Source: an uncultured Bacteroidota bacterium
GTDB lineage: Bacteria; Bacteroidota; Bacteroidia; Bacteroidales; VadinHA17
Length of the DNA: 64,000 bases
Direction: 5' to 3'
NCBI GenBank assembly: GCA_903844815.1
Contig: CAIMVD010000003.1
Span: 1 to 64,000 of the forward strand
The notes beneath the pieces were generated by a model. The model saw only the letters and a program-made list of their open reading frames with translations. It was not told the origin of the DNA and did not search any database. Positions 772-19,757 of the stretch are shown here, one piece after another (positions within the stretch are counted from its first letter, which is position 1; each line of letters begins with the position of its first letter). The translations under genes were made by a program, and so were the position numbers.

Positions 772-1971
772 ATGAAAAAATTGTCTTTGCTTGGCACCGG
801 ACTTATAGGCGCCTTTTATACAATGTCGCTGACAGGACAGCGCAGACCGGATCGAATCGTAAATGTATGTTCGGGCCACGAAGAGTCGGCCAGGAAATTC
901 GCTGAGAAATGGAATATCCCCAGGCATACAACAAGCATGAAAGAGGCCATTGAAGATCCGGAGGTAGAGGTTGTTGTGGTAGCCTTGCCGAACTACCTTC
1001 ATAAGGAAGCAATCCTGATGGCCTGTAAGGCGAAAAAAGGAATCCTTTGCACCAAGCCACTGGCTACAAACGGAGCTGAGGCTGCAGAGATACTTGCTGC
1101 AGTTGAGGAAGCCGGAGTCTTCCACGGTTACCTCGAGGACCTTGTCTATACTCCAAAAACCCTGAAAGCTATTGAAATGATCAGGAACGGATCATGTGGA
1201 CGCATACTCTGGACCAAATCGCGGGAGGCTCATTCCGGTCCTCACAGCGCCTGGTTCTGGGATAAAAAGCAATCAGGTGGCGGAGCCCTGGTTGACCTTG
1301 GCTGCCATTGCATAGAGATTGGAAGGAACTATATAGGAAAAGATATCAGGCCTGTTGAGGTGATGTGCTGGGCCGAAACCCAGGTAAAACCCATCGAGGC
1401 GGAAGACCATGCGATAGCGCTTATCAAATACGAGAGCGGAGCAATCTCTCAGGTAGAGGTCAGCTGGAACTTCAGGGGTGGAATGGACCTCAGGGATGAA
1501 GTATCAGGAACGGAAGGAACGATAAGGCTCGATCACTGGCTGCGTACAGGATTGGAAGTATTCACAACAGGTAATACAGGGAATTATGTCTCGGAGAAGA
1601 CTGAAAGCGATTCCGGCTGGCTCTTCCCGGTAGGGGATGAGGTCCATTCCCTTGGATATAATGATATGTTTACCGACATGCTTGATTCATTGGAGCAGGG
1701 GAGAGAGCCAAAGGAAACCTTCTACGACGGTTATATCGTCAACGCTATCATGGACGCCTGCTACAAGTCGGCCGGATCCAAAAAATGGGAGCCTGTTGAG
1801 CTTGCAGTCTGGAGAGGAACGGAAGGACTATCATCTAATGTCGACCTGATCGATTTTGATGAGCTTCATTATCTTATCAAAGAAGAGAAGATGCCCGATG
1901 GAAATATTAAAATAATGCTGAAGGAAAAGACGACAGGTAACATCATTCAGAAAATCAAATCCGAAAAGTGA
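772..1971 (+). CDS. Gfo/Idh/MocA family oxidoreductase
   Basis: N-terminal Rossmann-like LLGTGLIGAFY, VVVALPNYLHKEAILMACKAKKGILCTKPLA (EKP-like motif), GGGALVDLGCHCIE. Confidence 0.88.
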   Translation: MKKLSLLGTGLIGAFYTMSLTGQRRPDRIVNVCSGHEESARKFAEKWNIPRHTTSMKEAIEDPEVEVVVVALPNYLHKEAILMACKAKKGILCTKPLATNGAEAAEILAAVEEAGVFHGYLEDLVYTPKTLKAIEMIRNGSCGRILWTKSREAHSGPHSAWFWDKKQSGGGALVDLGCHCIEIGRNYIGKDIRPVEVMCWAETQVKPIEAEDHAIALIKYESGAISQVEVSWNFRGGMDLRDEVSGTEGTIRLDHWLRTGLEVFTTGNTGNYVSEKTESDSGWLFPVGDEVHSLGYNDMFTDMLDSLEQGREPKETFYDGYIVNAIMDACYKSAGSKKWEPVELAVWRGTEGLSSNVDLIDFDELHYLIKEEKMPDGNIKIMLKEKTTGNIIQKIKSEK

Positions 1972-2022
1972 TGTAAAAATCAACACATGTTGAATAAATA
2001 TACAAGTGGTATAAATACATTG

Positions 2023-2039: not shown

Positions 2040-2120
2040 GAAATAACAAGACATAAGTGTAAATAAATTCAACACATCGGGTTGTTTAGCATCTCAGCTT
2101 TTAAGATTTAAGTTACATTA

Positions 2121-2150: not shown

Positions 2151-2166
2151 TGGCACTATTGTTGAT
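2151..2166 (+). promoter_or_regulatory. Sigma-54 (-24/-12) type promoter
   Basis: TGGCACTATTGTTGAT versus consensus TGGCACGNNNNTTGCW; correctly spaced; 85 nt before the operon start; a sigma-54 activator gene lies nearby. Confidence 0.6.
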
Positions 2167-2250: not shown

Positions 2251-3966
2251 ATGAAAAAGATAGTGTGTTTTTTAACAGTTTTGTTTTTAATGAGTTACGG
2301 AAGTTTTTCTGTCATGGCTTCAGTAAACCCGGACGAAACTAACTCCGGTGATTCTATCAGGGTGGTATCTGCACCCGAATTATTGACTCTCTCGGAGAAG
2401 TGGGCGGCAGAATACAACAGGTTAAATCCTGACGTGAAAATCAAAATCGTTCAGGCTGATGGAAAAATTCCGGCAGCAACCTTTTTCAGGGAAGGTGTCA
2501 TTGGTTTCGTTCCTGATAATTATCTGGCCGCAGCTGAAATTGAATCAGCATGGAAAATGGTTGTCGGCAGGGATGTAATCGTCCCGGTAATGAACGCGAA
2601 TAATCCTTTTCTGGCTGAGATAAACGATCATGGTATTTCAGCAGGGTCATTGAAGATGTTTCTGAGCGATCCTGATTCACGTACCTGGGGTACCCTGCTC
2701 GGAGGTGTTCAGAAAGATAAGGCTTCATACTATATGTTAAATGATCCCTCGCTTACTTCTAACCTCTCTCTTTTCCTTGAAAAGGACATAGTAACAGAGG
2801 GAGGGACCGGCGTTGGCAATAGTGATGAACTAATTGCAGCCATCAGGAAGGACCCTTATGCTATAGGATTTTGCAGGCTGGCAAACATCCTCGATGCCGA
2901 CAATCAGGCTTTCACTGCAAATATCAGGCTGATACCTGTCGACAGGAATAATAACGGAACCCTCGACTACAATGAAAAAATATATGAAGATTTAGGTGCT
3001 TTTTCAAGAGGCATATGGATAGGGAAATATCCAAGGTCGCTGGTTACAAACATTTACTCTGTTTCAGGTGTACAGCCTACGGGTGTTAAGGAAACAGCTT
3101 TTCTGAAATGGGTCCTTTCCGACGGGCAGAAATTTCTTGGGAACAATGGCTTTTCTGACCTCCTTGTTGCCGAAAGACAAAGCGCCGCCGACAGGCTTTA
3201 TATAACCAGGGTTTCTCCTCTTCAGGCCGGCTCTGATTTCTCCTTGCTGAAAGCAGCAATGGCGATACTCGGACTGATAATTGTTGCAGGATTTATTGCT
3301 GATGCTGCCTTCAGGTATAACAGGCGCAAAAATCTTGTAATGAATGTAGTAACTACCTCGCCTCTTTCGTTTCCCGGAGAAAGCGGAATTAAGGTTCCTG
3401 CAGGACTCTATTTCGACAAGACCCACACCTGGGCATTCATGGAAAAGAGCGGAGTTGTTACAGTTGGAATAGACGACTTTCTTCAGCATGTTACAGGTCC
3501 GATCTCAAGAATCAGGATGAAGGGTGAAGGAAAGAAGATAAAAAAGGGAGAGCCTATCCTGTCTATCATCCAGAACGGGAAGCAGCTTCATCTTTATGCA
3601 CCTGTATCGGGAACTATTACTGAACAGAACTCGAGGCTGGAGGAGAATTCAACCCTGATAAATGAATCGCCCTACGGCGAGGGCTGGATTTATAAGATAG
3701 AACCATCGAACTGGATCAACGAAAATCAGCTTCTGTTTATGGCTGACAGGCAGAGACAATTTCTTAAAAAAGAATTTTTGAGGCTCAAGGATTTTCTTGC
3801 TGCTGCAGTGAATGGACAGGAAGGCAATCTTATACCGGTTGTGTTGCAGGACGGGGGAGAGATAAAAGACGGAATCCTTTCGGATATGGGGCCGGAGGTA
3901 TGGGAAGACTTTCAAACCAATTTTATTGATCCGTCAAGACAGGTCTGGTTTTACGAGATATTTTAA
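2251..3966 (+). CDS. PstS-like periplasmic substrate-binding domain fused via one TM helix to a GcvH-like (lipoyl-fold) domain
   Basis: Signal peptide; substrate-binding-like N-terminus (IRVVSAPELLTLSEKWAAEYNRLNPDVKIKIVQ); TM LLKAAMAILGLIIVAGFIADAA; GcvH-like THTWAFMEKSGVVTVGIDDFLQ...LYAPVSGTITEQNSRLEENSTLINESPYGEGWIYKI. Confidence 0.75.
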   Translation: MKKIVCFLTVLFLMSYGSFSVMASVNPDETNSGDSIRVVSAPELLTLSEKWAAEYNRLNPDVKIKIVQADGKIPAATFFREGVIGFVPDNYLAAAEIESAWKMVVGRDVIVPVMNANNPFLAEINDHGISAGSLKMFLSDPDSRTWGTLLGGVQKDKASYYMLNDPSLTSNLSLFLEKDIVTEGGTGVGNSDELIAAIRKDPYAIGFCRLANILDADNQAFTANIRLIPVDRNNNGTLDYNEKIYEDLGAFSRGIWIGKYPRSLVTNIYSVSGVQPTGVKETAFLKWVLSDGQKFLGNNGFSDLLVAERQSAADRLYITRVSPLQAGSDFSLLKAAMAILGLIIVAGFIADAAFRYNRRKNLVMNVVTTSPLSFPGESGIKVPAGLYFDKTHTWAFMEKSGVVTVGIDDFLQHVTGPISRIRMKGEGKKIKKGEPILSIIQNGKQLHLYAPVSGTITEQNSRLEENSTLINESPYGEGWIYKIEPSNWINENQLLFMADRQRQFLKKEFLRLKDFLAAAVNGQEGNLIPVVLQDGGEIKDGILSDMGPEVWEDFQTNFIDPSRQVWFYEIF

Positions 3967-3986
3967 GAATCTAAATAAAAAAAGTC

Positions 3987-4850
3987 ATGGATTTAAACAG
4001 AAGAACATTTTTCAGGGTCCTGGGTGCGACGGGGATCGCTGCGGCAACGGGACAACGCCTGGCAGCTGCTCCCCCCGGAGGAAGCCTTACCGAATTCTCC
4101 GGCATACTATATGATTCAACTCTTTGTGCAGGCTGTCAGAACTGCGAAGTCACGTGTGCAGAGGCAAACGGCCTGCCTGCCCCGACAGCGACGATGGAAG
4201 CAGGGGTAACCAGGAACACCGACGAAGCACACAGAACCGTTGTCAACACCTTTACAACTTCAAAGGGCGAAGCTTTTTGCAAAAAACAGTGCATGCATTG
4301 CAACGAACCTGCCTGTACTGCCGCCTGCCTGACTCAGGCTATGTACAAGACAAAGGAAGGGCCGGTTATCTGGAGAGGCGAAAAGTGCATGGGATGCCGT
4401 TATTGCATGGTCTCATGTCCTTTCGACATTCCTAAATTTGAGTATCACAGCGCAAATCCCAAAATTGAGAAATGCACAATGTGCTATGAGAAAATGATTG
4501 ATGGCAAAAAACCGGCATGCGTTGAAAACTGCCCTGCCGGAGCTCTTGTCGCGGGATCCAGAAGAGAGCTTATTAAAGAAGCGCGGAAAAGGATCGCTGC
4601 CAATCCCGACCAGTATGTTGATTATATCTATGGAGAACATGAGGCAGGCGGAACCGGAAGCCTGTATCTTTCGGGTGTCCCCTTTGATGAGATTGGTCTT
4701 AAAACTTCAATCCAGACAAAGTCGTATCCCGAACTTTCTAAGGGATTTCTTTACAGCGTTCCAACGATTTTTGTTCTCTGGCCAGCGCTGCTGCTGGGTC
4801 TGAAAGAAGCCACCAAAAATAATAACTCTAACTCTGAAGATCATGAATAG
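3987..4850 (+). CDS. Tat-exported 4Fe-4S ferredoxin-type electron-transfer subunit (HybA/NrfC/DmsB-like)
   Basis: Tat signal MDLNRRTFFRVLGATG; several Cys clusters (CAGCQNCEVTC, CKKQCMHCNEPAC, CMGCRYCMVSCP, CTMCYEKMIDGKKPACVENCP); C-terminal TM helix. Confidence 0.92.
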   Translation: MDLNRRTFFRVLGATGIAAATGQRLAAAPPGGSLTEFSGILYDSTLCAGCQNCEVTCAEANGLPAPTATMEAGVTRNTDEAHRTVVNTFTTSKGEAFCKKQCMHCNEPACTAACLTQAMYKTKEGPVIWRGEKCMGCRYCMVSCPFDIPKFEYHSANPKIEKCTMCYEKMIDGKKPACVENCPAGALVAGSRRELIKEARKRIAANPDQYVDYIYGEHEAGGTGSLYLSGVPFDEIGLKTSIQTKSYPELSKGFLYSVPTIFVLWPALLLGLKEATKNNNSNSEDHE

Positions 4851-6072
4851 CCCAGGTTATGCTCTTGCAAAAGACAATGACGGCAAACCCTTCTGGAAAT
4901 TTATTGCCGGGGAACTAAAGCCAAAAGGCAAGTTTCTTACGCCTTTCAATATCATATCGGTTCCCGTGATGATAGCCGGACTGATAATCATCGTAATCAG
5001 GTTCTGGAAGGGACTTGGAGAGGTTACGAACCTTACACAGGAGGTTCCATGGGGACTTTGGATAGGTTTTGATGTGGTCACAGGTGTTGCTTTTGCCGGC
5101 GGAGCCTATGTTCTGACCTTCATGGTCTATATCCTGAATATGAAGCAATACCACTCACTTGTCAGGGTTACTGTCCTTAACGGTTTCCTGGCATACGTCT
5201 TCTATGCAGGTGCTCTTTTGCTTGACCTGGGGCGGCCTTGGAATGTAATAAATCCTATAATAGGAAACAGTTTCGGTACCAGTTCTGTTTTATTTCTTGT
5301 TGCCTGGCATTTCCTCCTTTACATGATGGCTCAGCTTCTTGAATTCTCACCTGCCATCGCCGAATGGCTCGGCGCCAGGCGTGCCAGGAAAATCCTGTCG
5401 GGGATGACAGTCGGTGCGGTTATTTTCGGCATTACCCTTTCGACACTTCACCAGTCAGGGCTAGGGGCACTTTACCTGATGGCAAAGGATAAAATCCACC
5501 CGCTCTGGTATTCCGAATTCATACCGGTAATGTTCTTTGTATCCAGCATCTTCGCTGGCCTGTCGATGGTAATCTTTGAAGGATCGATCAGTCACAGAGT
5601 TTTCTTTGATCAGATAAGCGAAGAGAATCATAAAAAACAGAAGAACATAGTGAGGGGTCTGTCAAAGATCTGCGCCGTTGCCATGTTTGCCTATTTTACT
5701 TTGCAGGTGCTTGTTTTTATCCACGGCAAAAGGTGGGAATACCTCGACACGTCAATGGGATACTGGTACCTGCTTGAAATGATCGGCTTTGTCCTTCTTC
5801 CTATGACGCTTTTCTTTACAAGTTACAGGAAGAATAATATCACGCTGATTCGCGTTGCCGCAATAATTACAATGTTAGGCATAATTATGAACAGGCTTAA
5901 TGTGACAGTCATTGGTTTCAGGTGGGATCAGGCAATAAGGTATGTTCCTACATGGATGGAACTCGTTGTCACGCTCACAGTTATATTTACGGAAATATGG
6001 ATATTCCGGTGGGTGATTAACAGGATGCCTGTGCTTCGCGATTCGCCATCATGGGTAAAAGATGAGGAATAA
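4843..6072 (+). CDS. NrfD/PsrC/HybB-type polytopic quinone-interacting membrane subunit
   Basis: About 10 TM helices; GLGEVTNLTQEVPWGLWIGFDVVTGVAFAGGAYVLTF; LSTLHQSGLGALYL; overlaps the upstream gene by 8 nt. Confidence 0.9.
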   Translation: MNSPGYALAKDNDGKPFWKFIAGELKPKGKFLTPFNIISVPVMIAGLIIIVIRFWKGLGEVTNLTQEVPWGLWIGFDVVTGVAFAGGAYVLTFMVYILNMKQYHSLVRVTVLNGFLAYVFYAGALLLDLGRPWNVINPIIGNSFGTSSVLFLVAWHFLLYMMAQLLEFSPAIAEWLGARRARKILSGMTVGAVIFGITLSTLHQSGLGALYLMAKDKIHPLWYSEFIPVMFFVSSIFAGLSMVIFEGSISHRVFFDQISEENHKKQKNIVRGLSKICAVAMFAYFTLQVLVFIHGKRWEYLDTSMGYWYLLEMIGFVLLPMTLFFTSYRKNNITLIRVAAIITMLGIIMNRLNVTVIGFRWDQAIRYVPTWMELVVTLTVIFTEIWIFRWVINRMPVLRDSPSWVKDEE

Positions 6073-6121
6073 AAGAATCGTATAAAAGATCAATTGGTTA
6101 AACTGCATAAAAAATAAAGAG

Positions 6122-6829
6122 ATGGAAGGTTTCAGCTATAATAACATTTTTGACACCAAGGGAATAGAGTACCTTGTAATAATTGCTTTTCTGCTTTCGA
6201 TTATTCCTTTCTGGATAATTATTAATAAACCCGGAATAGTAAGCAGAATAAAGAAGTCGCTGGGTATATTTTCTGCAAGCACCCTTCGTGTTCCTGCAGG
6301 GTTATTTTACAGCAGGAATCACACCTGGGCTCATCTTGAAAAATCAGGTACGGCAAGGGTCGGTCTCGACGATTTTATCCTTCATGTTACCGGTGAGGTC
6401 AGTCTGGGCAGCCTGCTGAAGCCGGGTGATACAATAAAAAAGGGAGAACTCCTTGCATCAATCGACCATAACGGGAAACTACTGAATATTTTCTCTCCTG
6501 TTACAGGAACAATAACAGGCACAAATACGGGACTCTGTCAGGAGCCGGATGCCTTAATGGAAGATCCTTACGGAAAAGGGTGGATTTATAAGATTAAACC
6601 AACTCAATGGATCGAAGAGACAAGCAAATATTATCTTGCTGATGATGCGGCGGCCTGGGCAAAAAGGGAAGTTGAACGTGTAAAAGAATTTGTCGCGGTA
6701 TCTTCGGCTAAATATTCCACTAACAGTAAGTTTGCTGTCCTCCAGGATGGGGGTGAGTTATTCGACAATCCCCTCTCGGAGCTGCCTGATGAGGTCTGGC
6801 ATGATTTCCAGAAAACATTTTTAAGTTAA
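6122..6829 (+). CDS. Membrane-anchored GcvH-like protein (paralog of the C-terminal half of 2251..3966)
   Basis: N-terminal TM helix, then NHTWAHLEKSGTARVGLDDFILHVTGEV...IFSPVTGTITGTN...EDPYGKGWIYKIKP. Confidence 0.8.
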   Translation: MEGFSYNNIFDTKGIEYLVIIAFLLSIIPFWIIINKPGIVSRIKKSLGIFSASTLRVPAGLFYSRNHTWAHLEKSGTARVGLDDFILHVTGEVSLGSLLKPGDTIKKGELLASIDHNGKLLNIFSPVTGTITGTNTGLCQEPDALMEDPYGKGWIYKIKPTQWIEETSKYYLADDAAAWAKREVERVKEFVAVSSAKYSTNSKFAVLQDGGELFDNPLSELPDEVWHDFQKTFLS

Positions 6830-6840
6830 CAATAATTAAA

Positions 6841-6876
6841 ACGATTCCCGGACAAGCGCCGGGAATCGTTTTTTTA
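6841..6876 (+). terminator. Rho-independent terminator closing the redox operon
   Basis: ACGATTCCCGG-ACAAGCG-CCGGGAATCGT followed by a T tract. Confidence 0.9.
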
Positions 6877-6919: not shown

Positions 6920-8596
6920 ATGTCACCGGGAAAAAATGAAGCTAAAACATCTGCAGGAAACAGGATTAGAAAATTCATAGATACGTATCTCAGGTTCCGT
7001 TCTTCAATATACAGCAGGGTAGTATACATCATAACGTTGTCATCAGTAATCCTGTTTGTTTCGTTCGGAGTAATCTTCAAGTCAGTTTACGAGCAGAATC
7101 TAAACACTGTCATTCGTCAGAACGGAAATAATATCGGCTCAATTGTTGAAGGATCATTATATCATTCAATGCTGGCTAATGATAAGAGCACACTTCAGAG
7201 TACGCTCGACGTCATCAATACTATGTCGGGAATAGATGATGTCAATATGTATGATTCCAACGACAGCCTTGTTTATACATCATTTACCGGTGATATGGAA
7301 CAGCACAGCAATCCTGATTGCCTCAGCTGTCACAGGAATATCAGTGAAATGTTTCCCCTGAAGGAAAAATCGTACCGTATTATGGAGGTAAAAACAGAAT
7401 GCAGTATGGACAGCAATGATAATACTCACCGGCATTTGCTTATCAGGTCTCCCATTCTGAATGAAAAATCGTGCTATACAAGTTCGTGCCATGCACACCA
7501 GGCAAGCGATGTTGTGCTTGGTTCATTAGTAATAAAGATGCCCCTTGCTGATCTTGATGCTGCTGTGAAGAAATCATCGGCCAAATACTATCTTCTGGCT
7601 GCTCTTATTACACTAGCCCTGATGGCAGTCCTGATCTTATTTACAAGTGAAAAGATCAAAAGACCGTTAAACGAGATTATTAAGGCAAGTTTAGCCGTTT
7701 CAGGCGGGGATAAGGATACAAGGCTGGAAATAAAACCTAACCAGCTTAATGATATGCGAATGGTGTCGGTAGCTTTTAATGATATGCTCGATAATCTTCA
7801 GTCGGCAAACCTGGAACTGCAGAACTGGTCAAAACAGCTCGAATATAAGGTACAGAAGAAGTCGGAAGAGCTGGGTGCTGCTCAAAATGAACTTATCCAC
7901 ATTGAGAGAATAGCTTCGCTCGGGAAGTTATCATCATCCGTTGCTCATGAGATCAATAATCCTCTTTCGGGAATCCTTGTTTATACAAAACTGATTCACA
8001 AGCAGTTAAGTAATCCTGATATGGATGCAGCCAAGAAGGAGACTGTGCTTAAGCATCTGAAGCTTATCGAGAACGAAACCAAGAGGTGCGGCGATATAGT
8101 TAAAGGATTACTCGATTTTTCCAGAAAAGATCAGGAAAACTTTGAATCAAAGCATCTGCATAAAATTCTTCAGGAGACCTATGAACTTATGACCCATTCG
8201 GTCAAAATAGCCAATATCAGCTTCCTTTCGGACCTTTCAGCCCAGGATGATCTTATTTTCTGCAGCCCTAACCAGATAAAACAGGCTTGCGTTGCATTAA
8301 TTGTGAATGCATCTGAAGCAGTCCGGGAGCGTGGAGAAATAACAATTTCAACTAAAAATCCCGATCCGGGGAATGTCAGGATTGATATTACGGATAATGG
8401 GATAGGCATCCAGACCGGAGATATTTCACATATCTTCCAGCCTTTTTTCTCAACCAAGCATGATGCTTCAGGGATCGGTCTGGGACTTGCAATTGTTCAT
8501 GGCATTGTTGAAAGCCACAACGGAAGGATCGATGTAAAATCCGAACCCGGGAAGGGAACAACCATGTCAATTACATTACCTCTAGTAAAGACTTAA
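6920..8596 (+). CDS. Membrane sensor histidine kinase with heme-c-like motifs in the extracytoplasmic sensor region
   Basis: Two TM segments, CLSCH and CYTSSCH between them, HAMP-like region, VAHEINNPLSGILVYTKL H-box, IQTGDISHIFQPFFSTKHDASGIGLGLAIVHGIVESHNG ATPase. Confidence 0.92.
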   Translation: MSPGKNEAKTSAGNRIRKFIDTYLRFRSSIYSRVVYIITLSSVILFVSFGVIFKSVYEQNLNTVIRQNGNNIGSIVEGSLYHSMLANDKSTLQSTLDVINTMSGIDDVNMYDSNDSLVYTSFTGDMEQHSNPDCLSCHRNISEMFPLKEKSYRIMEVKTECSMDSNDNTHRHLLIRSPILNEKSCYTSSCHAHQASDVVLGSLVIKMPLADLDAAVKKSSAKYYLLAALITLALMAVLILFTSEKIKRPLNEIIKASLAVSGGDKDTRLEIKPNQLNDMRMVSVAFNDMLDNLQSANLELQNWSKQLEYKVQKKSEELGAAQNELIHIERIASLGKLSSSVAHEINNPLSGILVYTKLIHKQLSNPDMDAAKKETVLKHLKLIENETKRCGDIVKGLLDFSRKDQENFESKHLHKILQETYELMTHSVKIANISFLSDLSAQDDLIFCSPNQIKQACVALIVNASEAVRERGEITISTKNPDPGNVRIDITDNGIGIQTGDISHIFQPFFSTKHDASGIGLGLAIVHGIVESHNGRIDVKSEPGKGTTMSITLPLVKT

Positions 8597-8608: not shown

Positions 8609-9949
8609 ATGGCAAAAAAGATCTCAATACTGATTGTTGATGATGAAGTATCGGTGAGGGACTCTCTCTACAACTGGTTTATAGAGGACGGGTATCATGT
8701 TGCATGCGCCGAAAATGCCAAGACAGCCTTGTTGATAATTGAAAATGAGGCTTTCGACATTGTTCTTGCGGATATTAAAATGCCTGGTATGGACGGACTG
8801 GAAATGCTCCGGAGGATCAAGCTCCTGAAATCAGATGCAATCGTAATTGTGATGACAGCATTTGCCACTGTCGATACTGCTGTTCAGGCATTGAAAGATG
8901 GAGCATTTGATTATATAACAAAGCCTTTTGACCCTGATGATCTTTCGCACCTTATCCGTAATGCTTCCAGGCAGATCTCCCTTACTGAAGAAAATGAGAA
9001 TCTGAAGCAAAAAGTGGTTTCGCTTGAAAATGTAGCAGACCTTATTGGTAACAGTGAGGTAATGAAGAGGGTTCTGAAGGAGATCGAGAGTGTAGCCCAA
9101 TCTAATTCATCCGTAGTGATAACGGGTGAAAGCGGTACTGGCAAAGAGCTGGTGGCCAGGGCAATACACTCCAATTCGAACAGGCGGTTTTTTCCGCTGG
9201 TAAGTGTTCATTGCGGGGCTTTATCGGAGAGCCTTCTGGAGAGCGAACTGTTCGGTCACGAGAAAGGAGCTTTTACCGGTGCAATGTATAACCGGAAGGG
9301 GCGTTTTGAGATGGCCGATAACGGGACAATTTTCCTCGATGAGATTGCGACAATATCGACCAAGATGCAGATCGATCTTTTGCGGGTTCTGGAGTCCAAG
9401 AGTTTTGTCAGGGTCGGAGGAAATAAGGAGATCTTATCCGACTTCAGGGTAATATGTGCCACAAACAGGGACCTAAAGAGCATGGTTGAAAACGGGTCTT
9501 TCCGTGAGGATCTTTTTTACAGGCTGAACGTTGTCAATATAAATGTACCTCCGTTGCGAGAGCGTACTGAGGATATCCCGCTTCTGGTAGATTATTTTAT
9601 TAAGAAGTACTGTCTCTCAATGAACAGGCCTGCAATTACAATCGAACAGTCAGCCCTTAGCCGGCTTACGGAATTCAGCTTTCCGGGAAATGTCAGGGAA
9701 CTGGAGAATATGATTGAAAGGGCCATAGTGGTTGGCAACGGCAGGAAGATTACCCTTAAGGATCTTCCGCTTGAAAAATCAATGATTAGCAGTTCAATAG
9801 AGAGCCTTGACGACCTTGAAAAAACACATATCAGGAATATCCTGAATAAGTATGCGTGGAATATCTCACGTGCTGCCCGCGCATTGAAAGTTGACAGGGT
9901 GACACTTTATAACAAAATATCGAAATACGGACTGAAACCTTCTGAGTGA
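8609..9949 (+). CDS. NtrC-family sigma-54-dependent response regulator
   Basis: Receiver (ILIVDDEVSVRDSL, DIVLADIKMPGMDG), AAA+ with GESGTGKELVARAIH and GAFTGA, Fis-type HTH. Confidence 0.95.
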   Translation: MAKKISILIVDDEVSVRDSLYNWFIEDGYHVACAENAKTALLIIENEAFDIVLADIKMPGMDGLEMLRRIKLLKSDAIVIVMTAFATVDTAVQALKDGAFDYITKPFDPDDLSHLIRNASRQISLTEENENLKQKVVSLENVADLIGNSEVMKRVLKEIESVAQSNSSVVITGESGTGKELVARAIHSNSNRRFFPLVSVHCGALSESLLESELFGHEKGAFTGAMYNRKGRFEMADNGTIFLDEIATISTKMQIDLLRVLESKSFVRVGGNKEILSDFRVICATNRDLKSMVENGSFREDLFYRLNVVNINVPPLRERTEDIPLLVDYFIKKYCLSMNRPAITIEQSALSRLTEFSFPGNVRELENMIERAIVVGNGRKITLKDLPLEKSMISSSIESLDDLEKTHIRNILNKYAWNISRAARALKVDRVTLYNKISKYGLKPSE

Positions 9950-10488
9950 AAAGCCGGCAGAATATCGCACTGATCTCCTTCGGGTACTTTGACAATGGTT
10001 TTCTCAAGGATGTCGCTGAGGCAGTAAAAAACGAATTCTACTGTGAAGTGAGCATGAAGGAGGGCCATCTCGATTTGAGTGAGTTCTATGATCCGGTAAG
10101 GAGGCAATATAATGGCAGCAGACTCTTATGCCATGTGGAGGAAAATTTCGCAACGGACCTGTCAAAAACAATAGGTCTTTTCAGCGTCGATCTTTTTATT
10201 CCCATTCTCACCTACATATTCGGACAGGCCTTCCTTAACGGAAGGTCGGGGATTGCATCGGATTACCGGTTAAGCAACGTACGATACGGAATAACTGCCG
10301 ACGAAAAGCTTTTGCTGGAGCGTTTCAGGAAGGAAGTTATTCATGAACTGGGTCACACATTCGGGTTGATTCACTGTCATGTCCCCACCTGTGTCATGCG
10401 GTCGGGTACCTATGTTGAAGATATTGACCAGAAAGAAGAATCGTTTTGTTCTGCATGTAGGGTTGCACTAAATGCTATTCTGGATTGA
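9946..10488 (+). CDS. amzA: Archaemetzincin-type zinc metalloprotease
   Basis: HELGHTFGLIHCHVPTCVM...CSACR matches HEXXHXXGX3CX4CXM...CXXC; GTG start overlaps the regulator stop. Confidence 0.87.
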   Translation: MKSRQNIALISFGYFDNGFLKDVAEAVKNEFYCEVSMKEGHLDLSEFYDPVRRQYNGSRLLCHVEENFATDLSKTIGLFSVDLFIPILTYIFGQAFLNGRSGIASDYRLSNVRYGITADEKLLLERFRKEVIHELGHTFGLIHCHVPTCVMRSGTYVEDIDQKEESFCSACRVALNAILD

Positions 10489-10574
10489 ATTTTCTGTCAT
10501 CTGCCGGTTTTTATTTGTGTACTCATCATTTTTTACTATTTTTATCTTTTATTAATTTTCCAGATCTCTTTTAC

Positions 10575-11690
10575 ATGGATTTAACGCGGCGAATTCGCGA
10601 TAAAATGATGAAAGAACGCCTCATGTTTGTATACAGAGGCGTTGTGACTAATGAGAATTCCGTAGCTCTCCTGGTACTCCTTGAAAAAGAGATGGAGAAT
10701 TCAGAATTCGGGTTTCTTGGAAGGAAAAGACTCTTTATGTTTGTTCTCGAAAGCCTTCAGAATGTTACACGTCATAGTACCAAGAACAAACATGCCGGCA
10801 TGTCGATGGTTGTCTACTCGAAGGCTGACAATGGCTATACGGTTACTACCGGCAATGTGCTTCAAACTACAGCTGTTGAAGAATTGAAATCAAGACTTAA
10901 GGAAATTAATTGTCTGGAACCGGAGGAGATCAGGAGTGTGTACAGGAAAATGCTCAGTTCTGCAGAGTTCAGCAATAAAGGAGGAGCCGGCCTTGGATTG
11001 ATTGAAATGGCTAAGAAAACGGGGAATAAGCTGGATTATGATTTTGTTCCCCTCAAAGATGACCTGTCTTATTTTATTCTTTCAAAGACAATAGATTCAG
11101 GGGGAGTAGGACTGCATTTCAAAAGAGATGAGCAATCATTTCACGGGAAGGCTGTTTCGCAGCTTGAACGCATAATGGCTGATAATAATGTTTACCTTCT
11201 CTGGCTTGGGCATATATCACCAGATGTGGGCAAAGAAGTGCTATCGTTCAACGAAACAAAACTGTCGGAGGAAGATATCAATTCGATGATGCGGAAACGG
11301 GTATTCAGCATCCTTGTAGAAATCCTTGAGAATGTTCTAAAATACAGTCCGGGAAAGGAAGCTGAAGAAAAGTACGGAATGCCGGTGATTATGATAAGGA
11401 TGTTCGATAAAGCTTTTTATCTTACTACAGGAAACCTCATACTTAACTCCGACGTCGGGGCGCTCAGACAAAAGCTTGATTTAATAAATAATTATGATAA
11501 GACGGAACTGAAGGACCTTTTTATTAAATCGCTCTCCTCTCAGGACCTTAAATCTGATAGCACCGGTAATATGGGTTTAATTGATATGGCCAGGAAATCG
11601 GGAAGCAAACTGGAGTATAAATTTGAAGAGCTAAACGATCCTTATTCCTATTATACCTTAACAGTTAAGGTTGATCAGAAAATTAACTAA
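10575..11690 (+). CDS. Tandem SiaB-like (DUF6272-type) kinase-like protein, two homologous halves
   Basis: Start set at internal ATG (MDLTRRIRDKMMKERL). Parallel motifs: FVLESLQNVTRHS...VTTGNVL...KGGAGLGLIEMAKKTGNKLDY and LVEILENVLKYS...LTTGNLI...TGNMGLIDMARKSGSKLEY. Confidence 0.75.
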   Translation: MDLTRRIRDKMMKERLMFVYRGVVTNENSVALLVLLEKEMENSEFGFLGRKRLFMFVLESLQNVTRHSTKNKHAGMSMVVYSKADNGYTVTTGNVLQTTAVEELKSRLKEINCLEPEEIRSVYRKMLSSAEFSNKGGAGLGLIEMAKKTGNKLDYDFVPLKDDLSYFILSKTIDSGGVGLHFKRDEQSFHGKAVSQLERIMADNNVYLLWLGHISPDVGKEVLSFNETKLSEEDINSMMRKRVFSILVEILENVLKYSPGKEAEEKYGMPVIMIRMFDKAFYLTTGNLILNSDVGALRQKLDLINNYDKTELKDLFIKSLSSQDLKSDSTGNMGLIDMARKSGSKLEYKFEELNDPYSYYTLTVKVDQKIN

Positions 11691-12433
11691 TCAAACATTT
11701 TAAAGTTCAGAACGGAGCCGTCCCATTCCGCATAGCTTCCGTGTTTTATCCAGTCGCCAAGAAATACCACTTCAGAGGTCTCCTTAAGAACATATTTCAT
11801 AGCCAGATGGCGATGGCCAAAAATAAAGAAATCAATGTTTTCCTTAGTAAGAATAGTTTTTGCGTATCTGAGAAGATCTTCCTTTTCCTCTCCGAAGAAC
11901 TGTAGCTCAAGTCCTTTTCCAAGCCTCGAACTAAGCGACCACATATGTCCTATCCCAACACCAATCGAAGGATGCAGTGAGGAGTACATCGCCCTGAGGG
12001 TTTTATTCCGGAAGATAGCGAGGAGGATCTTATAAGCCTTTTCTTTTGTTCCCAACCCTTCGCCATGTGCGAGGTGGAAGTTTTTACCGTCGAAGACAGT
12101 AGTGAGGGGCGAAGTATGGATAATCATGCCACATTCCGAAGAGAAATAATCGCGGACCCACATATCGTGATTGCCCGTAAAGAAATGAACGGGCACGCCT
12201 GAATCGGTAATCTCTGAAACTGTGCCAAGAAACCTGGTATAGCCGCGTGGCACAACAAGCCTGTATTCCCACCAGAAATCAAAGATATCCCCGAGAAGGT
12301 AGATTTCCTTTGCATCACCGGCAACTGACTTAAGCCACCTGACAACTTTTTTTTCTCTTTCAAGTGGAGCAGTACCTGTATTCAGTCCAAGATGAAAATC
12401 TGACGCAAAATATATTTTACCAGTTTCTTTCAC
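11687..12433 (-). CDS. lpxH: UDP-2,3-diacylglucosamine diphosphatase (LpxH-like metallophosphoesterase)
   Basis: YFASDFHLGL, LLGDIFDFWWEYR, FTGNHDMWVRDYF, HGEGLG, FGHRHLAMKY. Confidence 0.85.
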   Translation of the reverse strand: MKETGKIYFASDFHLGLNTGTAPLEREKKVVRWLKSVAGDAKEIYLLGDIFDFWWEYRLVVPRGYTRFLGTVSEITDSGVPVHFFTGNHDMWVRDYFSSECGMIIHTSPLTTVFDGKNFHLAHGEGLGTKEKAYKILLAIFRNKTLRAMYSSLHPSIGVGIGHMWSLSSRLGKGLELQFFGEEKEDLLRYAKTILTKENIDFFIFGHRHLAMKYVLKETSEVVFLGDWIKHGSYAEWDGSVLNFKMFD

Positions 12434-12443
12434 AAGTATCCGA

Positions 12444-13604
12444 TTAGTTATTGAACAGTTGATCGAGTTTCAACTTGAGTGCCCTTCCATGCAGATTAGT
12501 GGCAACAATGGTTCCCTCCTTATCGAACAGGTAATTTGAAGGAAGGCTCTTGACGTTGAAAAGTATGGCATTCTTCGGATCACGGGGATCGTCCTCGCGT
12601 GTACTTATCCAGGGCAACTCATCAAACTTTACAGCCTGTCTCCATTCTGCCTCATTCTGGTCAAGATTGATCTGGTAGATCTCAAATCCCTTCTTGCTAT
12701 AGAGTTTATAAAATTCCCTTAGTTGCAGGTTTTCCTGAACGCAATCGCTTGACTTTACCGACCAGAATGTCAGCAAAACATATTTACCCCTAAGCGATGA
12801 GAGTGCGGTTTTTTTCCCTGAAACATCGCTGAGGTAAGGATCAAGTTTGGTTTGGGGCAGGTCTTTTGTCATCTGTTCCAGCTGACTCATATACATCTGG
12901 TTCATCTCCTTCTCAAAATCACGCGCAAGTGCCTGAACATGTTTCGAACCGGGATACCGGTTTGTAAGTGTGTCGGTGACGATTTTAAGATACTGCAGAT
13001 CACGCGGTTCATAGAGGACATATGTTTCGGAATTAATCCTCTGATAAAGGGCTTTTATTGAAGCCATTGAGCTTAAATTCTTGATTATGAACTCGATATT
13101 GTATTTACGCTGTTTGTCGATAAGCATTTTGTATTCAGATTCCAGCATCGGACCTTTTGCTTCGAATCCGGGCTCCTTCGATAATTTCTGGTATACAGTA
13201 CTTAAAGAATCGAGTTGTCTTTTGGTATCGTTAAGTTTGTTGTCGAGGTTGCGTACCTTCATCGAACCTTCAGAACCTGTCACAGAGTAGTTTTCGAACA
13301 GGGTTTTCCCTTTGGATGTGAGCCTTATCTTTTCACCGGGTTCAGCAAGAAGTGTTATGAAATTGTCTTTTGAAAATCCGAGCTGGTAAAAATCGGGCTC
13401 TGATGTTTTTATTCTGAAACTGAACTTCCCCGAGTTACTGACTTTCGAAGAATCAATAAGAATGGGTTTGTCAACTTCAACCCTGTGGATGTAAACATAT
13501 TTTTTCTTTTCGCCATTAACGTTTCCGTCAATTTTGAAGGAGCTTTTGTCTTTACATCCAGTAAAAAAAACTATAAGGCACAGCAGAAATATTATACGTT
13601 TCAT
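12444..13604 (-). CDS. DUF4369/thioredoxin-fold (TlpA/AhpC-TSA) lipoprotein, degenerate active site
   Basis: Lipobox FTGCKD; thioredoxin region SSLRGKYVLLTFWSVKSSDCVQENLQLREF. Confidence 0.8.
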   Translation of the reverse strand: MKRIIFLLCLIVFFTGCKDKSSFKIDGNVNGEKKKYVYIHRVEVDKPILIDSSKVSNSGKFSFRIKTSEPDFYQLGFSKDNFITLLAEPGEKIRLTSKGKTLFENYSVTGSEGSMKVRNLDNKLNDTKRQLDSLSTVYQKLSKEPGFEAKGPMLESEYKMLIDKQRKYNIEFIIKNLSSMASIKALYQRINSETYVLYEPRDLQYLKIVTDTLTNRYPGSKHVQALARDFEKEMNQMYMSQLEQMTKDLPQTKLDPYLSDVSGKKTALSSLRGKYVLLTFWSVKSSDCVQENLQLREFYKLYSKKGFEIYQINLDQNEAEWRQAVKFDELPWISTREDDPRDPKNAILFNVKSLPSNYLFDKEGTIVATNLHGRALKLKLDQLFNN

Positions 13605-14808: not shown

Positions 14809-14990
14809 GAAAAGACCTTTTTATTACTACTTTTTTTAAAATTATGACCTGCAAAGTTATTCTTTTTTTAATCCGTCAATACTTTTAAGGAATTTATTAC
14901 CTTTCTTTGTAAAATATGAATCAGGTTGTTGAGATTGATAAATTATTTATCTTTAAAACGCCTTTTTGTTTAAGACAAACAGTAATTTAT

Positions 14991-16940
14991 ATGAGTTATA
15001 TTAAGTTTGATAAGAGCCAGATTGTTAATCTGGAATATTCTCTTAGCAGGGAGATGATAAGGACAAACAGAGCGGGGTCCTATTCATCAACGACGCTTGT
15101 TGGCTGTAATACACGCAAATACCACGGGATGCTTGTGTGCCCGGTGGATGCCTTAGGTGGTGAGAGATTTGTTTTGCTTTCCACAATGGACATAACGGTT
15201 GTAAACAACGATAAGAGTTTTAACATTGGCATCAGGAAATACAAGGGTGACTATTTTAATCCAAAGGGACATAAGTACATAGAAGATTATGATGCCGACA
15301 ACATTCCTTCAAGAACTTACAGGGTTGGAGGTGTGAAAGTAAGGCAGGAAAGGTTGTTTGTTCACTATGAAGAACAGTTTCTTCTTCGGTTTACAATACT
15401 GGAGGCCTCTGAACCAATGAAGCTGCAGTTTCGTCCCTTTCTCGCATTTAGAAATATCCATGAACTGACTCATGCCAATCTCACTGCAAACACAAAAGTA
15501 GATTTTATTGAAAATGGCATTAAATCAAGAATGTATGACGGATTTCCTTCTCTTAGCCTGCAATTTTCAAAGAAAGTTGAGTTCGTTCCCGTACCCGACT
15601 GGTATCTTGGTGTCGAATATCCCGAGGAGCAAAAACGAGGATATGAATTTTCTGAAGACCTTTTCACTCCGGGTTTTTTTGAACTAACTGCCAAAGAGGG
15701 AGATATCATTGTCTTTTCTGCTTCGACAAAGGAGGAAAAAACAGCTGGACTTAAGGTTAAGTTCGAAAAAAATGTCTCCGGCAAGATCCCGCGTGACAGT
15801 TTTGTTAACTGTTTGAAGAACGCTGCCCAGCAGTTTGTTGAAAAACGAAGCGGCAGGACTCTTATAATTGCTGGTTATCCATGGTTTGAAGCCTGGGGGA
15901 GGGACACCTTTATAGCCCTTCCGGGGTTAGCTATGGCTCGACATAAACTCGACTTATACAGAGAGGTACTTGATACCCAGATCGCATCGATGAAAAACGG
16001 TATTTTTGCCGATATGGGAGATCCGGTTAATCCTGCTTTTAACTCTGCTGATGCATCATTATGGTTCTTCTGGACAGTTCAGCAGTACATCGGTCATGGA
16101 GGAACCGATGGATGGGAAAGGTATGGGGACGCCGCAAAGTCAGTTTTATATGCCTACAAATCCGGATCACTTTCAAATATCCGTATGCGCGAAAATGGCC
16201 TTATCTATGCCGATGCACAGGGGAAGGCCCTTACCTGGATGAATGCCTATGTCGATTCTCTCCCTGTAACTCAGCGCAGAGGTTATGATGTTGAGATAAA
16301 TGCACTCTGGTATAATGCACTTTGCTTTTCCCTTGAAAATGCTTCAGCAGCAGGCGACAAGAAATTCGTAGACGAATTCGAAAATATTCCCGGATTGGTA
16401 AAAAAATCCTTTATCGACCTCTTCTGGGATGAAAAATCGGGTTGCCTTGCTGACTATGTGAATGATTCTGAAGGGAGGAACACATTTGTAAGGCCGAATA
16501 TGGTTATTGCCGTTTCAATGCCCTTTTCGATGCTGACCAAGGAACAGATGAAAAAAATCCTCGATATAGCCGACAGGGAACTTGTAACAGTTAGGGGATT
16601 ACGGTCATTATCGCCGGGCAATATATTATACAGGGGACTCTACAAGGGCAGTCAGGATGAGCGGAACAGGGCTTATCATCAGGGCTCTGTGTTCCCATGG
16701 CTTCTTGGCCCTTTCTGTGAAGGATGGCTGAGGGTCTATGGCAGCCAGGGAGTTCAGAAAGTAAGGAAACTTATTTACGGCCTCGAAGCCGTAATGAGCG
16801 AGCATGGTATCAGCACCATTTCCGAAATACACGATGGCGATCCTCCACATACACCTGCAGGAGCAATTTCTCAGGCATGGAGCGTTGGCGAAGTGCTAAG
16901 AATTTTAGATCTTCTGAATAAAAAATATGCAAATCTTTAA
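14991..16940 (+). CDS. Glycogen debranching enzyme (amylo-alpha-1,6-glucosidase, GDE type)
   Basis: REMIRTNRAGSYSSTTLVGCNTRKYHGMLVCP; GYPWFEAWGRDTFIALPGL; YHQGSVFPWLLGPF; ATG 14991 preferred within ORF 14916. Confidence 0.88.
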   Translation: MSYIKFDKSQIVNLEYSLSREMIRTNRAGSYSSTTLVGCNTRKYHGMLVCPVDALGGERFVLLSTMDITVVNNDKSFNIGIRKYKGDYFNPKGHKYIEDYDADNIPSRTYRVGGVKVRQERLFVHYEEQFLLRFTILEASEPMKLQFRPFLAFRNIHELTHANLTANTKVDFIENGIKSRMYDGFPSLSLQFSKKVEFVPVPDWYLGVEYPEEQKRGYEFSEDLFTPGFFELTAKEGDIIVFSASTKEEKTAGLKVKFEKNVSGKIPRDSFVNCLKNAAQQFVEKRSGRTLIIAGYPWFEAWGRDTFIALPGLAMARHKLDLYREVLDTQIASMKNGIFADMGDPVNPAFNSADASLWFFWTVQQYIGHGGTDGWERYGDAAKSVLYAYKSGSLSNIRMRENGLIYADAQGKALTWMNAYVDSLPVTQRRGYDVEINALWYNALCFSLENASAAGDKKFVDEFENIPGLVKKSFIDLFWDEKSGCLADYVNDSEGRNTFVRPNMVIAVSMPFSMLTKEQMKKILDIADRELVTVRGLRSLSPGNILYRGLYKGSQDERNRAYHQGSVFPWLLGPFCEGWLRVYGSQGVQKVRKLIYGLEAVMSEHGISTISEIHDGDPPHTPAGAISQAWSVGEVLRILDLLNKKYANL

Positions 16941-16953
16941 GCTAGAATAATAT

Positions 16954-18246
16954 ATGAGGGTGTTAATGTTTGGATGGGAATTTCCGCCTCATATCTCGGG
17001 CGGATTAGGTACTGCCAGTTATGGCCTGACGAAGGGAATGGCCACTCTCGATGATCTGGAAGTGATATTTGTCGTTCCAAAAGCCTGGGGTGACGAAGAT
17101 CAGTCAATTGTCAGACTGGTTGGTGCCAACAAGGTGCCGGTAGCCTTTAAACAGGTATACTACAAGGGCTTCAGAAGGACTCTCGAAACAATAGAGGTCT
17201 CTTCCAGGATTGTCCCTTATACTGATCCTGAAGATTTCTGGAAAATGACAAGAACAGAAGTAACCGGACATAATCTTATGGTACAGACCAACGATTCGGG
17301 GACTGTTGATTTTTCGGGAAGATACGACTGCTCTCTTATGGAGGAGATCTCCAAATATGCTGTAGTAGCTTCGGTGATTGCCGAAGAAAACGATTTTGAT
17401 ATCATTCATGCCCACGACTGGCTCGCTTATCCTGCAGGGATTGCAGCCATGGAGGTATCAGGGAAACCACTCGTTATTCACGTCCATGCAACCGACTTTG
17501 ACAGGAGCGGAGGAAGTGTTAACCCCGACGTTTACAGGATCGAGAAAAACGGCATGGACGCTGCTTCCAAAATAATAACTGTAAGTAACCTCACAAGGGA
17601 TATAGTAATAAATAAATATAATATTGATCCTGCCAAGGTCGAAACTGTTTACAATGCCGTTGAACCCGTCGAGATAAACAGTGACCATTTTATCAGGAAG
17701 GGTTTCGACGAGAAGGTAGTTACCTTTCTGGGCCGTATAACCATGCAGAAAGGGCCGGAATATTTTATTGAAGCCGCTTATAAAGTCCTTCAGAAAATGG
17801 ACAATGTAAGGTTTGTGATGGCAGGATCGGGCGATATGATGGAAAAGATGATGCGAAGGGCAGCAGCTCTTAAGATCACTGACAGATTCCACTTTACGGG
17901 CTTCCTTAAAGGAACCGATGTCTTTACAATGCTCGACATGAGCGATGTATATATAATGCCTTCCGTTTCAGAGCCTTTTGGTATATCTCCGCTCGAAGCA
18001 ATGCAGTCGAATGTTCCGGTTATTATCTCAAAACAATCGGGCGTTGCTGAAATTCTTACACATGCCGTGAAGACTGATTTCTGGGATATCGACGCTATGG
18101 CTGATGCCATCTACGCCATACTTAACTACTACCCACTTGCCGATACTATAATAAAGAACGGCAAGGAAGAGGTTATCAAGCTTAAATGGGATAACTCGGC
18201 AAAACATGTCAGGGATATTTATAAAAGTGTTTTAGAGAAAAATTAA
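16954..18246 (+). CDS. Glycosyltransferase family 4 (glycogen-synthase-like)
   Basis: MRVLMFGWEFPPHISGGLGTASYGL; VVTFLGRITMQKGPEYFIEAA; MPSVSEPFGISPLEAMQ. Confidence 0.88.
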   Translation: MRVLMFGWEFPPHISGGLGTASYGLTKGMATLDDLEVIFVVPKAWGDEDQSIVRLVGANKVPVAFKQVYYKGFRRTLETIEVSSRIVPYTDPEDFWKMTRTEVTGHNLMVQTNDSGTVDFSGRYDCSLMEEISKYAVVASVIAEENDFDIIHAHDWLAYPAGIAAMEVSGKPLVIHVHATDFDRSGGSVNPDVYRIEKNGMDAASKIITVSNLTRDIVINKYNIDPAKVETVYNAVEPVEINSDHFIRKGFDEKVVTFLGRITMQKGPEYFIEAAYKVLQKMDNVRFVMAGSGDMMEKMMRRAAALKITDRFHFTGFLKGTDVFTMLDMSDVYIMPSVSEPFGISPLEAMQSNVPVIISKQSGVAEILTHAVKTDFWDIDAMADAIYAILNYYPLADTIIKNGKEEVIKLKWDNSAKHVRDIYKSVLEKN

Positions 18247-18256
18247 GAACAAGAAT

Positions 18257-19735
18257 ATGAGTGCAGCAAATAAAAAAGCAATATGCTTCTATTTTCAGGT
18301 CCATCAGCCCTTCAGACTTAAACGTTACAGGTTCTTTGATATAGGGCATGATCATTATTATTATGATGATTATACAAATGAATCGATTATGCGAAAGGTG
18401 GCTGACCGATGCTATCTCCCTGCCAATAAGATCATTCTAGATCTCATTAACAAGCATAAGGGAAAGTTCAAGGTTACATTCTCCATTTCGGGTCTTGCAA
18501 TAAACCAGTTCAGGCTTTATGCCCCGGAAGTGCTCGATTCTTTCAGGGAGCTGGCCGAAACCGGAATGGTGGAATTTCTTGCCGAGACTAACTCACACTC
18601 GCTTGTAGCTCTCAAAAGCCGAAGCGAATTTGAACGTCAGGTTGAAAAGCATATGGAGAACCTTAAGGAGTATATTGGAGTGGTGCCCACCTCTTTCCGG
18701 AATACTGAATTGATATATTCCGATACCATTGGATCCTGGGTTGCCGATATGGGTTTCAAATCAACACTTACTGAAGGAGCCAAGCACGTTCTCGGCTGGA
18801 AAAGCCCGAACTTCATGTACTGTAATTCAATAAATCCAAGGCTTAAACTTCTCCTGAGAAACTTTGTACTTAGTGATGATATCGCTTTCCGGTTCTCCAA
18901 CAGGGAATGGAATGAATGGCCCCTTACTGCCGATAAATATTCTTCATGGGTAAACAAACTTGCTAATGGAAGCGAGCTTCTTAATATTTTCCTCGATTAC
19001 GAAACATTCGGCGAACACAATGGGAAAGAGTCAGGAATCTTTGATTTTCTGACCAATATGCCTACAGCGGTGATAAAGAAAACACCTTTCAGGTTTATGA
19101 CCCCTTCGGAAATTGCCGATACTCTTCAGCCTGTTTCTGCAATCAGCATACCATCGCCAATTTCATGGGCCGACGAAGAACGCGACATCACAGCCTGGCT
19201 GGGAAACGAACTTCAGAATGCGGCTCTCGACAAGCTTTACAGCCTGGCTGGGAAGGTAAATAAATGCGAAGATAAACTTATAAGAAAGGATTGGGAATAT
19301 CTGCAGGCAAGCGACCATTTTTATTACATGGCCACCAAGTTTTTCTCTGACGGAGCCGTTCATGCCTATTTCAATCCCTATGAAACCCCCTATGATGCAT
19401 TCATGAATTATATGAATGTCCTGAGCGACTTCGAACTAAGGCTGAAAAAATATTTTCCTGATACTGCTGAGCAGGATCAGATATTTAAGCTTGGTTCCCA
19501 GATTATTGAAAAGGACATGCTCATAGAGAAACAGGTATTTGAGATCCAACGACTTTCCAGGAAAGTAGGTAAGACTGCACCCGCAAAGAAAACGGCGGTT
19601 AAAACTGCAACTAAACCCGAAAAGAAAACCGGAGAGAAAACTGTGACGAAAGCTGCCGCCAAAAAAACTACTGTTAAAAATACAGCTGTTTCAGGTACAA
19701 AATCTGCCATCAAAAAGAGCAGCAAGACAAAATAG
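18257..19735 (+). CDS. GH57-family alpha-amylase-like glycoside hydrolase with Lys/Ala-rich C-terminal tail
   Basis: ICFYFQVHQPFRLKRYRF; EFLAETNSHSL; NIFLDYETFGEH; basic repeat tail KKTAPAKKTAVKTATKPEKKTGEK... Confidence 0.87.
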   Translation: MSAANKKAICFYFQVHQPFRLKRYRFFDIGHDHYYYDDYTNESIMRKVADRCYLPANKIILDLINKHKGKFKVTFSISGLAINQFRLYAPEVLDSFRELAETGMVEFLAETNSHSLVALKSRSEFERQVEKHMENLKEYIGVVPTSFRNTELIYSDTIGSWVADMGFKSTLTEGAKHVLGWKSPNFMYCNSINPRLKLLLRNFVLSDDIAFRFSNREWNEWPLTADKYSSWVNKLANGSELLNIFLDYETFGEHNGKESGIFDFLTNMPTAVIKKTPFRFMTPSEIADTLQPVSAISIPSPISWADEERDITAWLGNELQNAALDKLYSLAGKVNKCEDKLIRKDWEYLQASDHFYYMATKFFSDGAVHAYFNPYETPYDAFMNYMNVLSDFELRLKKYFPDTAEQDQIFKLGSQIIEKDMLIEKQVFEIQRLSRKVGKTAPAKKTAVKTATKPEKKTGEKTVTKAAAKKTTVKNTAVSGTKSAIKKSSKTK

Positions 19736-19757
19736 TGCTAATTAGGAATAGTTAAAA

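Follow-up and report, generated by a model that had tools for sequence, protein, structure and literature searches.

The first part of a 64,000-nucleotide stretch of DNA from an uncultured Bacteroidales bacterium (assembly GCA_903844815.1, contig CAIMVD010000003.1, positions 1 to 64,000; the whole stretch is called the window) encodes a seven-gene unit of fixed order: PG, an HmcB-like Fe–S protein, an HmcC-like membrane subunit, GH2, a diheme c-type histidine kinase, an NtrC-type regulator and an M54 metzincin. The unit would represent a menaquinone-linked redox complex that has two GcvH-fold coupling subunits and is induced by a heme-sensing two-component system, a reading that we hold at about even confidence. 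The original prediction, made by a model from the letters of the window, had described four co-directional, tightly packed genes with named domains. The open reading frame coordinates and the Pfam matches confirm these four at 2251–3966, 3987–4850, 4843–6072 and 6122–6829, all on the + strand and separated by 20, −8 and 49 bases in that order. They had been taken as the whole unit; the four genes are real, but the three downstream genes for the kinase, the regulator and M54 share the same conserved locus. The genes are as follows.

2251..3966, + strand: PG, with a signal peptide, a degenerate PstS-like periplasmic (PBP) domain, a transmembrane segment (332–350), a cytoplasmic GcvH-fold domain and a [DE]GG tail (Pfam, AlphaFold, Foldseek, alignments and charge topology).
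3987..4850, + strand: HmcB/HybA-like periplasmic Fe–S protein, with a twin-arginine translocation (Tat) start and a C-terminal tail anchor (NCBIfam, Cys conservation and alignment with Escherichia coli HybA).
4843..6072, + strand: HmcC/HybB-like membrane subunit of the NrfD family (PF03916, NCBIfam HmcC and HybB residue mapping).
6122..6829, + strand: GH2, with an HmcD-like N-terminal transmembrane segment, a cytoplasmic GcvH-fold domain and a [DE]GG tail (GCV_H, a weak HmcD match and topology).
6920..8596, + strand: membrane histidine kinase, with periplasmic CX2CH and CX4CH motifs (diheme c), HAMP, HisKA and HATPase (Pfam).
8609..9949, + strand: NtrC/AtoC-type sigma-54-dependent response regulator, with REC, AAA+ and a Fis-type helix–turn–helix (HTH) (Pfam).
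9946..10488, + strand: M54 archaemetzincin, HEXXHXXGXXHCX4CXM...CXXC (PF07998, 9e-21).
10485..11690, + strand: tandem DUF6272 protein, accessory (PF19788, 3e-66).

Support is good for the architecture and regulation of the unit; the direction of electron flow, the partner, the signal, docking by GcvH and the part played by M54 are inferences. In the proposed mechanism, HmcC and HmcB would carry electrons between menaquinone and a periplasmic partner whose gene lies elsewhere, and the two GcvH-fold domains contributed by PG and GH2 would lie on the cytoplasmic side of the membrane. These domains, probably not lipoylated, would serve as docking or regulatory subunits that couple the complex to signalling. 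The kinase, with its two periplasmic c-type hemes, may sense redox conditions, or else a ligand of heme such as nitric oxide; it would then phosphorylate the NtrC-type regulator, and the sigma-54 promoter of PG–HmcB–HmcC–GH2 would be switched on. Finally, M54, whose gene accompanies that of the regulator, probably shortens or removes one of the components.

The unit is conserved across genomes. Among 60 related genomes, the window's own included, full PG is encoded in 11 (it is cut by a contig end in G019 and split across two frames in G052). HmcC is present in nine of the 11 genomes with PG and in none of the 49 without it (p = 4e-9), and M54 in ten of 11 against 0/49 (p = 1.5e-10), where neither p value is corrected for shared ancestry. 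The original prediction had proposed the GcvH-like proteins as partners of the Fe–S/NrfD pair and named gene neighbourhoods as the check; the co-occurrence is strict, and these proteins are conserved partners of HmcB and HmcC. A wider scan of 85,462 species genomes used PG-specific peptide patterns, through which alone other phyla were reached. It gave 234 loci encoding a PG relative, and the 80 that were kept are all from Bacteroidota metagenome-assembled genomes (MAGs). Where at least 8.8 kb of sequence follows PG (53 loci), HmcB, HmcC and GH2 come after it in 50, well beyond what chance would give, and the kinase, regulator and M54 lie downstream in 50. The gene order is fixed except in one locus (L124), in which the regulatory genes are upstream. 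No additional gene occupies a fixed place around the locus in more than a few loci, and the DUF6272 gene after M54 is linked in 7 of 90 loci, near relatives only. The earlier remark that no catalytic or multiheme subunit is encoded here is borne out for the locus and its conserved surroundings. Part of the unit can be lost: six reduced Bacteroidales loci (L042, L046, L077, L079, L086 and L111; the L046 contig ends within the kinase) have PG immediately followed by the kinase, regulator and M54, without HmcB, HmcC and GH2. The genomes of these six loci gave no HmcC match, allowing for some misses due to MAG incompleteness, and at least five separate losses of HmcB–HmcC–GH2 are required on the PG tree.

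The regulatory region upstream of PG also shows a conserved architecture, in which the following elements were located.

1968..2004, + strand: GTGATGTAAAAATCAACAC and TGTTGAATAAATATACA, two candidate sites for the regulator that form the distal pair, roughly 183 bp upstream of the −24 element.
2057..2074, + strand: GTGTAAATAAATTCAACA, the proximal candidate site for the regulator, roughly 94 bp upstream of the −24 element.
2151..2166, + strand: sigma-54 −24/−12 promoter, TGGCACTATTGTTGAT (TGGCAY-N5-TTG element).
6838..6872, + strand: intrinsic-terminator-like hairpin between the redox and regulatory genes (14-pair stem with a T run).

Sigma-54 requires an activator. Of 76 scorable loci, 74 have the TGGCAY-N5-TTG element ahead of PG, and the linked regulator has the composition of an NtrC-type sigma-54 activator (REC, AAA+ with GAFTGA and Fis-type HTH, with a sigma-54 promoter at its target); it is 75–86% identical across the first set of loci. 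Palindromes of the type GTGTTGAATNATTCAACAC recur at about −94 and −183 from the sigma-54 element in many related loci, and they would be bound by the regulator. The proximal site is the sole zero-mismatch site in its own genome. Since the zero-mismatch site in each of five genomes is found solely at the PG operon, the linked regulator most likely has this operon as almost its only target. A wider regulon was considered and rejected: whether the site search was strict or relaxed, each genome had a single convincing site, that of the operon itself, and the weaker matches are few, some also arising with a reversed control pattern. The terminators that had been proposed to flank the four genes are partly upheld. 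Terminator-like hairpins are found at 2120–2144 and 6838–6872, the longest on the + strand among nine such sites in 6.5 kb (4.5 expected in shuffles), but the 2120 hairpin is not conserved. For the same reason it was rejected as an operator, the conserved feature there being the sigma-54 promoter. The kinase, regulator and M54 genes sit behind the 6838 terminator, yet they share the conserved locus.

The locus was also compared with its sister layouts; 396 genomes of the phylum were searched for HmcC and for M54. M54 lies within 6.5 kb of 25 of the 33 stronger HmcC loci, compared with none of the 31 weaker ones. In layout B (L195 and L197), the GcvH-like protein GH1 has no PBP domain and the rest is as in the window. 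Layout C (L199–L201, L204 and L205) is composed of GH1, HmcB without a Tat signal, HmcC, a GcvH-like protein without a transmembrane segment, kinase, regulator and mostly M54. This second GcvH-like protein has a Cys-rich N-terminus, CxWMxxGxxxYKLCDxxFxCExC (L199:7536–8402, L200:7813–8544, L201:3111–3911 and L204:8558–9274). The sigma-54 element also precedes GH1 in L195, L197, L199 and L201. Layout D (L196, L198, L202, L203 and second copies in L204 and L205) contains HmcB, HmcC, kinase, and receiver-GcvH and transmembrane-receiver-GcvH proteins, together with 13- and 19-heme cytochromes in most loci. The receiver-GcvH fusions (L196:9266–11227; L198:6983–7747 and 12187–13581; L202:13975–15942; L203:14084–16058), both soluble and membrane-anchored, stand beside HmcBC in L196, L198, L202, L203 and L204, and in the first four of these also beside a CXXCH-motif kinase. 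These layout D regulators have no DNA-binding domain, and GcvH takes the position of the output domain. In L204 and L205, layouts C and D lie back to back and divergent in the same genome. The PBP domain is missing from the homologues in other classes, and kinase and redox genes stay together there too. A plasmid search with a GH1 protein turned up ordinary gcvH genes alone.

The sister layouts bear directly on the role of the GcvH-fold domains. The suggestion of the original prediction that they replace the usual electron-transfer partner is not supported, because sister clusters hold GcvH beside HmcBC plus 13- and 19-heme cytochromes; its other suggestion, sensing or shuttling of electrons for a complex encoded elsewhere, may apply. 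GcvH looks instead like an added, signalling-linked subunit, since these clusters pair receiver-GcvH with multiheme cytochromes, and the fusion of the same domain to a receiver suggests a docking or regulatory function. Thus, GcvH is best read as a cytoplasmic regulatory or coupling subunit of a menaquinone redox complex tied to two-component signalling, and neither as a lipoyl carrier nor as a simple cytochrome substitute. A further step, which we put forward tentatively and well short of even confidence, is that the GcvH fold was co-opted as an output or coupling domain for signalling, so that a quinone-linked electron-transfer complex is gated directly by two-component phosphorylation. The receiver-GcvH fusions would then be the direct form, and the window would hold a split version, with a periplasmic-domain–GcvH protein and an NtrC regulator; such gating would be categorically new if shown. 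The usual view is that control of respiratory complexes is mainly transcriptional; the conserved family, with its quinone-reactive pair, two GcvH-fold proteins and dedicated heme kinase, suggests that in anaerobic Bacteroidota signalling and electron transfer are linked within the module itself.

The redox pair itself can be assigned in some detail. The Fe–S protein matches Fer4_11 (3.6e-19) and scores 312.5 bits with the NCBIfam HmcB model, against an equivalog cut-off of 420, and 227 bits with HybA, also under the cut-off. Its 16 conserved cysteines leave room for four 4Fe–4S clusters, and it is predicted to lie outside the cytoplasm because it has a twin-arginine start (MDLNRRTFF) and an anchoring hydrophobic C-terminal tail. 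HmcC belongs to the NrfD/PsrC family (PF03916, 4.1e-15; 56.6 bits with a gathering cut-off of 25.8), with an NCBIfam equivalog score of 413.6 bits against a cut-off of 550. NrfD/HybB subunits react with quinone on the periplasmic side. In E. coli HybB, replacement of R89, Y99, E148 or H184 hampers hydrogen oxidation (PMC8076601). These residues correspond to R108, Y118, E167 and H203 of HmcC, each with conservation of 95% or more across 66 sequences; D109, S129 and R329 of HybB are also conserved, and S105, E133 and S190 are replaced by A, L and A, respectively. By alignment, HmcC thus keeps the key quinone/proton residues of HybB.

These residues and the 16 Fe–S cysteines are equally what would be expected of an ordinary HybAB/NrfCD-like quinol dehydrogenase feeding a cytochrome or terminal reductase encoded elsewhere, with the GcvH-fold proteins serving purely as structural anchors and the kinase adjusting expression. 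Related HmcBC pairs adjoin multiheme cytochromes, and a c-type cytochrome assembly protein is encoded in all 11 PG genomes (background 54 of 60), both in line with this alternative. However, no periplasmic electron partner is encoded in or near the locus, and NrfA, tried as the missing partner, does not co-occur (4/11 genomes with PG, 12/49 without, p = 0.46; the window's own genome is without NrfA). Moreover, the receiver-GcvH fusions and the loci with PG and kinase but without HmcBC are left unexplained. We therefore consider an ordinary dehydrogenase unlikely, although it is the best placed of the rival explanations.

The kinase carries both heme motifs, CX2CH and CX4CH, in 74 of 74 sequences, including those of the reduced and distant loci. 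Its sensor part gives weak Mcp40H-20 and Cache matches with CXXCH present, and no DUF3365 match, which would mark an sCache_heme sensor, is among the 25 families listed for it. The low-confidence model (pTM 0.36) is overall most like WalK, and its kinase part is like ZraS. Two tandem copies of the diheme kinase precede the regulator in L040, L055, L076, L078, L101, L103 and L125. M54 is an archaemetzincin by its motif, with metal and Cys positions at least 95% conserved and an M-to-C spacing of 16, compared with 17 in the published motif. As no redox protein other than the diheme kinase accompanies HmcC and HmcB in the locus, and kinase and redox genes stay together in other classes, these two subunits might pass menaquinol electrons to the kinase hemes and so report the redox state of the quinone pool to the regulator. 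Feeding of these hemes by HmcBC was our initial reading; it was downgraded because the kinases of all six reduced loci retain both motifs without HmcBC. In addition, the best sites point solely to the module's own promoter, so a sensor would have no separate output. A quinone-pool sensor is accordingly rather improbable, more so than the dehydrogenase.

In the coupling role that we favour, the GcvH-fold domains would not be lipoyl carriers, and their sequences are consistent with this. Both proteins match GCV_H in Pfam (PG 6.6e-29, GH2 9.5e-21), and the PG model (pLDDT 79) aligns with the H-protein 1onl at TMt 0.94. They nevertheless miss the glycine cleavage H protein equivalog score (77.9 and 72.8 bits against the 115.85 needed), and a true GcvH is encoded elsewhere in the same genome, on contig C340. 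The lipoyl hairpin in PG is one residue shorter, with a modelled turn at N442–G443, and K444 opens the next strand. A shared mark is the [DE]GG tail, found in 141 of 145 members, the four exceptions being contig-cut or fragmented copies. The charge distribution around the transmembrane segments predicts both GcvH domains to be cytoplasmic and the PstS-like domain periplasmic. The N-terminus of GH2 gives a weak match to the HmcD profile NF045712 in seven of eight members (best E 0.025, below the 34-bit cut-off). A lipoate swinging arm for electrons or sulfur, as in LbpA of the sulfur-oxidizing Hdr-like system, would agree with the GcvH fold, with a lysine near the lipoyl position in 81/81 PG and 57/63 GH2 sequences, and with the predicted location in the cytoplasm, where ligases work. 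However, the lysine is offset by one at a two-residue N–G turn, most homologues in other classes have R, N or E in its place, and no lipoate ligase gene is in the conserved set; the domains appear by alignment to have lost the lipoate site, and a swinging arm is very improbable. Family models label the members as glycine cleavage H proteins despite the missing lipoyl site, an annotation that should be corrected.

The PBP domain of PG is nearest to PstS by sequence and fold (PBP_like_2 at 7e-5, below the Pfam cut-off; Foldseek match to the PstS-like 4jwo at TMt 0.69). The PstS motifs (SGA..L, GGAGKG and RSD.CGA) are replaced and variable, an EF-hand-like loop is retained, and a PstS with anion-binding motifs is encoded on contig C241 of the same genome in a PstSCAB-like operon; by these alignments, the domain is a degenerate PstS. 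A phosphate or oxyanion receptor that controls the kinase by binding an anion would fit this ancestry and the retention of PG with the kinase after HmcBC–GH2 loss, but we give it very little weight given the replaced motifs and the homologues in other classes without a PBP domain.

Several observations weigh against the signal-coupled redox complex that we prefer. Docking of the GcvH domains to HmcC is a step that we infer. The six reduced loci mean that PG does something even where the redox pair is missing; regulating the kinase or partnering it is the simplest option. The invariant PG lysine in Bacteroidales (81/81) leaves another modification or binding role possible. Finally, the topology may not be general, because HmcB has no Tat signal and the second GcvH protein no transmembrane segment in layout C.

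Elsewhere in the window, a PemK/MazF-family toxin-like gene is located near the edge (112–444), and a glycogen/alpha-glucan cluster at 14916–26017 encodes a debranching enzyme, a glycosyltransferase, a GH57 protein, a large glycogen-synthase/phosphorylase fusion and an alpha-amylase.

We compared the locus with known systems. By best NCBIfam score, Hmc (HmcABCDEF) of Desulfovibrio shares the HmcB/HmcC-like core, and the transmembrane segment of GH2 weakly resembles HmcD; the Hmc complex has a tail-anchored Fe–S and NrfD-type pair that resembles that of the window (PMC10924467). Unlike Hmc, the window locus and its conserved neighbourhood are without the HmcA multiheme cytochrome, HmcE and HmcF, the scores fall under the equivalog cut-offs, and GcvH-fold subunits, a PBP domain and the kinase, regulator and M54 are present instead; by composition and scores, the locus is not an Hmc member. 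HybA and HybB of E. coli hydrogenase 2 are alike in identity (38 and 29%, respectively), functional HybB residues and tail anchor, but no NiFe hydrogenase HybO/HybC is linked in the locus or conserved neighbourhood. The HmcBC–multiheme cytochrome clusters of the same phylum (L196, L202 and L203) share HmcB, HmcC, a CXXCH-motif kinase and GcvH-like proteins, and differ in that GcvH is fused to receiver domains and multiheme cytochromes are present, without an NtrC regulator or M54. LbpA lipoate-binding proteins are likewise GcvH-like proteins tied to redox complexes; unlike PG and GH2, they have a strictly conserved lipoyl lysine and are linked to maturation enzymes (Cao et al. 2018, PMC6067878). 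The window family loses the lysine in other classes and has no Hdr-like genes in its conserved set. ZraS/ZraR resembles the window system in its kinase part and AtoC/ZraR-type regulator, but the window kinase has periplasmic diheme motifs and its target is a redox operon. The sCache_heme (DUF3365/Tll0287; PMC12889525) and Geobacter Mcp40H sensors also have an extracytoplasmic c-type heme and a Cache-like sensor, whereas the window kinase has two motifs, CX2CH and CX4CH, and no DUF3365 match among the matches listed. In the openly searchable literature, we found no paper on GcvH with NrfD/HmcB, archaemetzincin operons of this kind or receiver-GcvH, nor the established complex of exactly this composition that the original prediction had named as decisive against it. 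In summary, the locus, undescribed in that literature, looks like a variant, under signal control, of respiratory modules of the Hmc/HybAB type.

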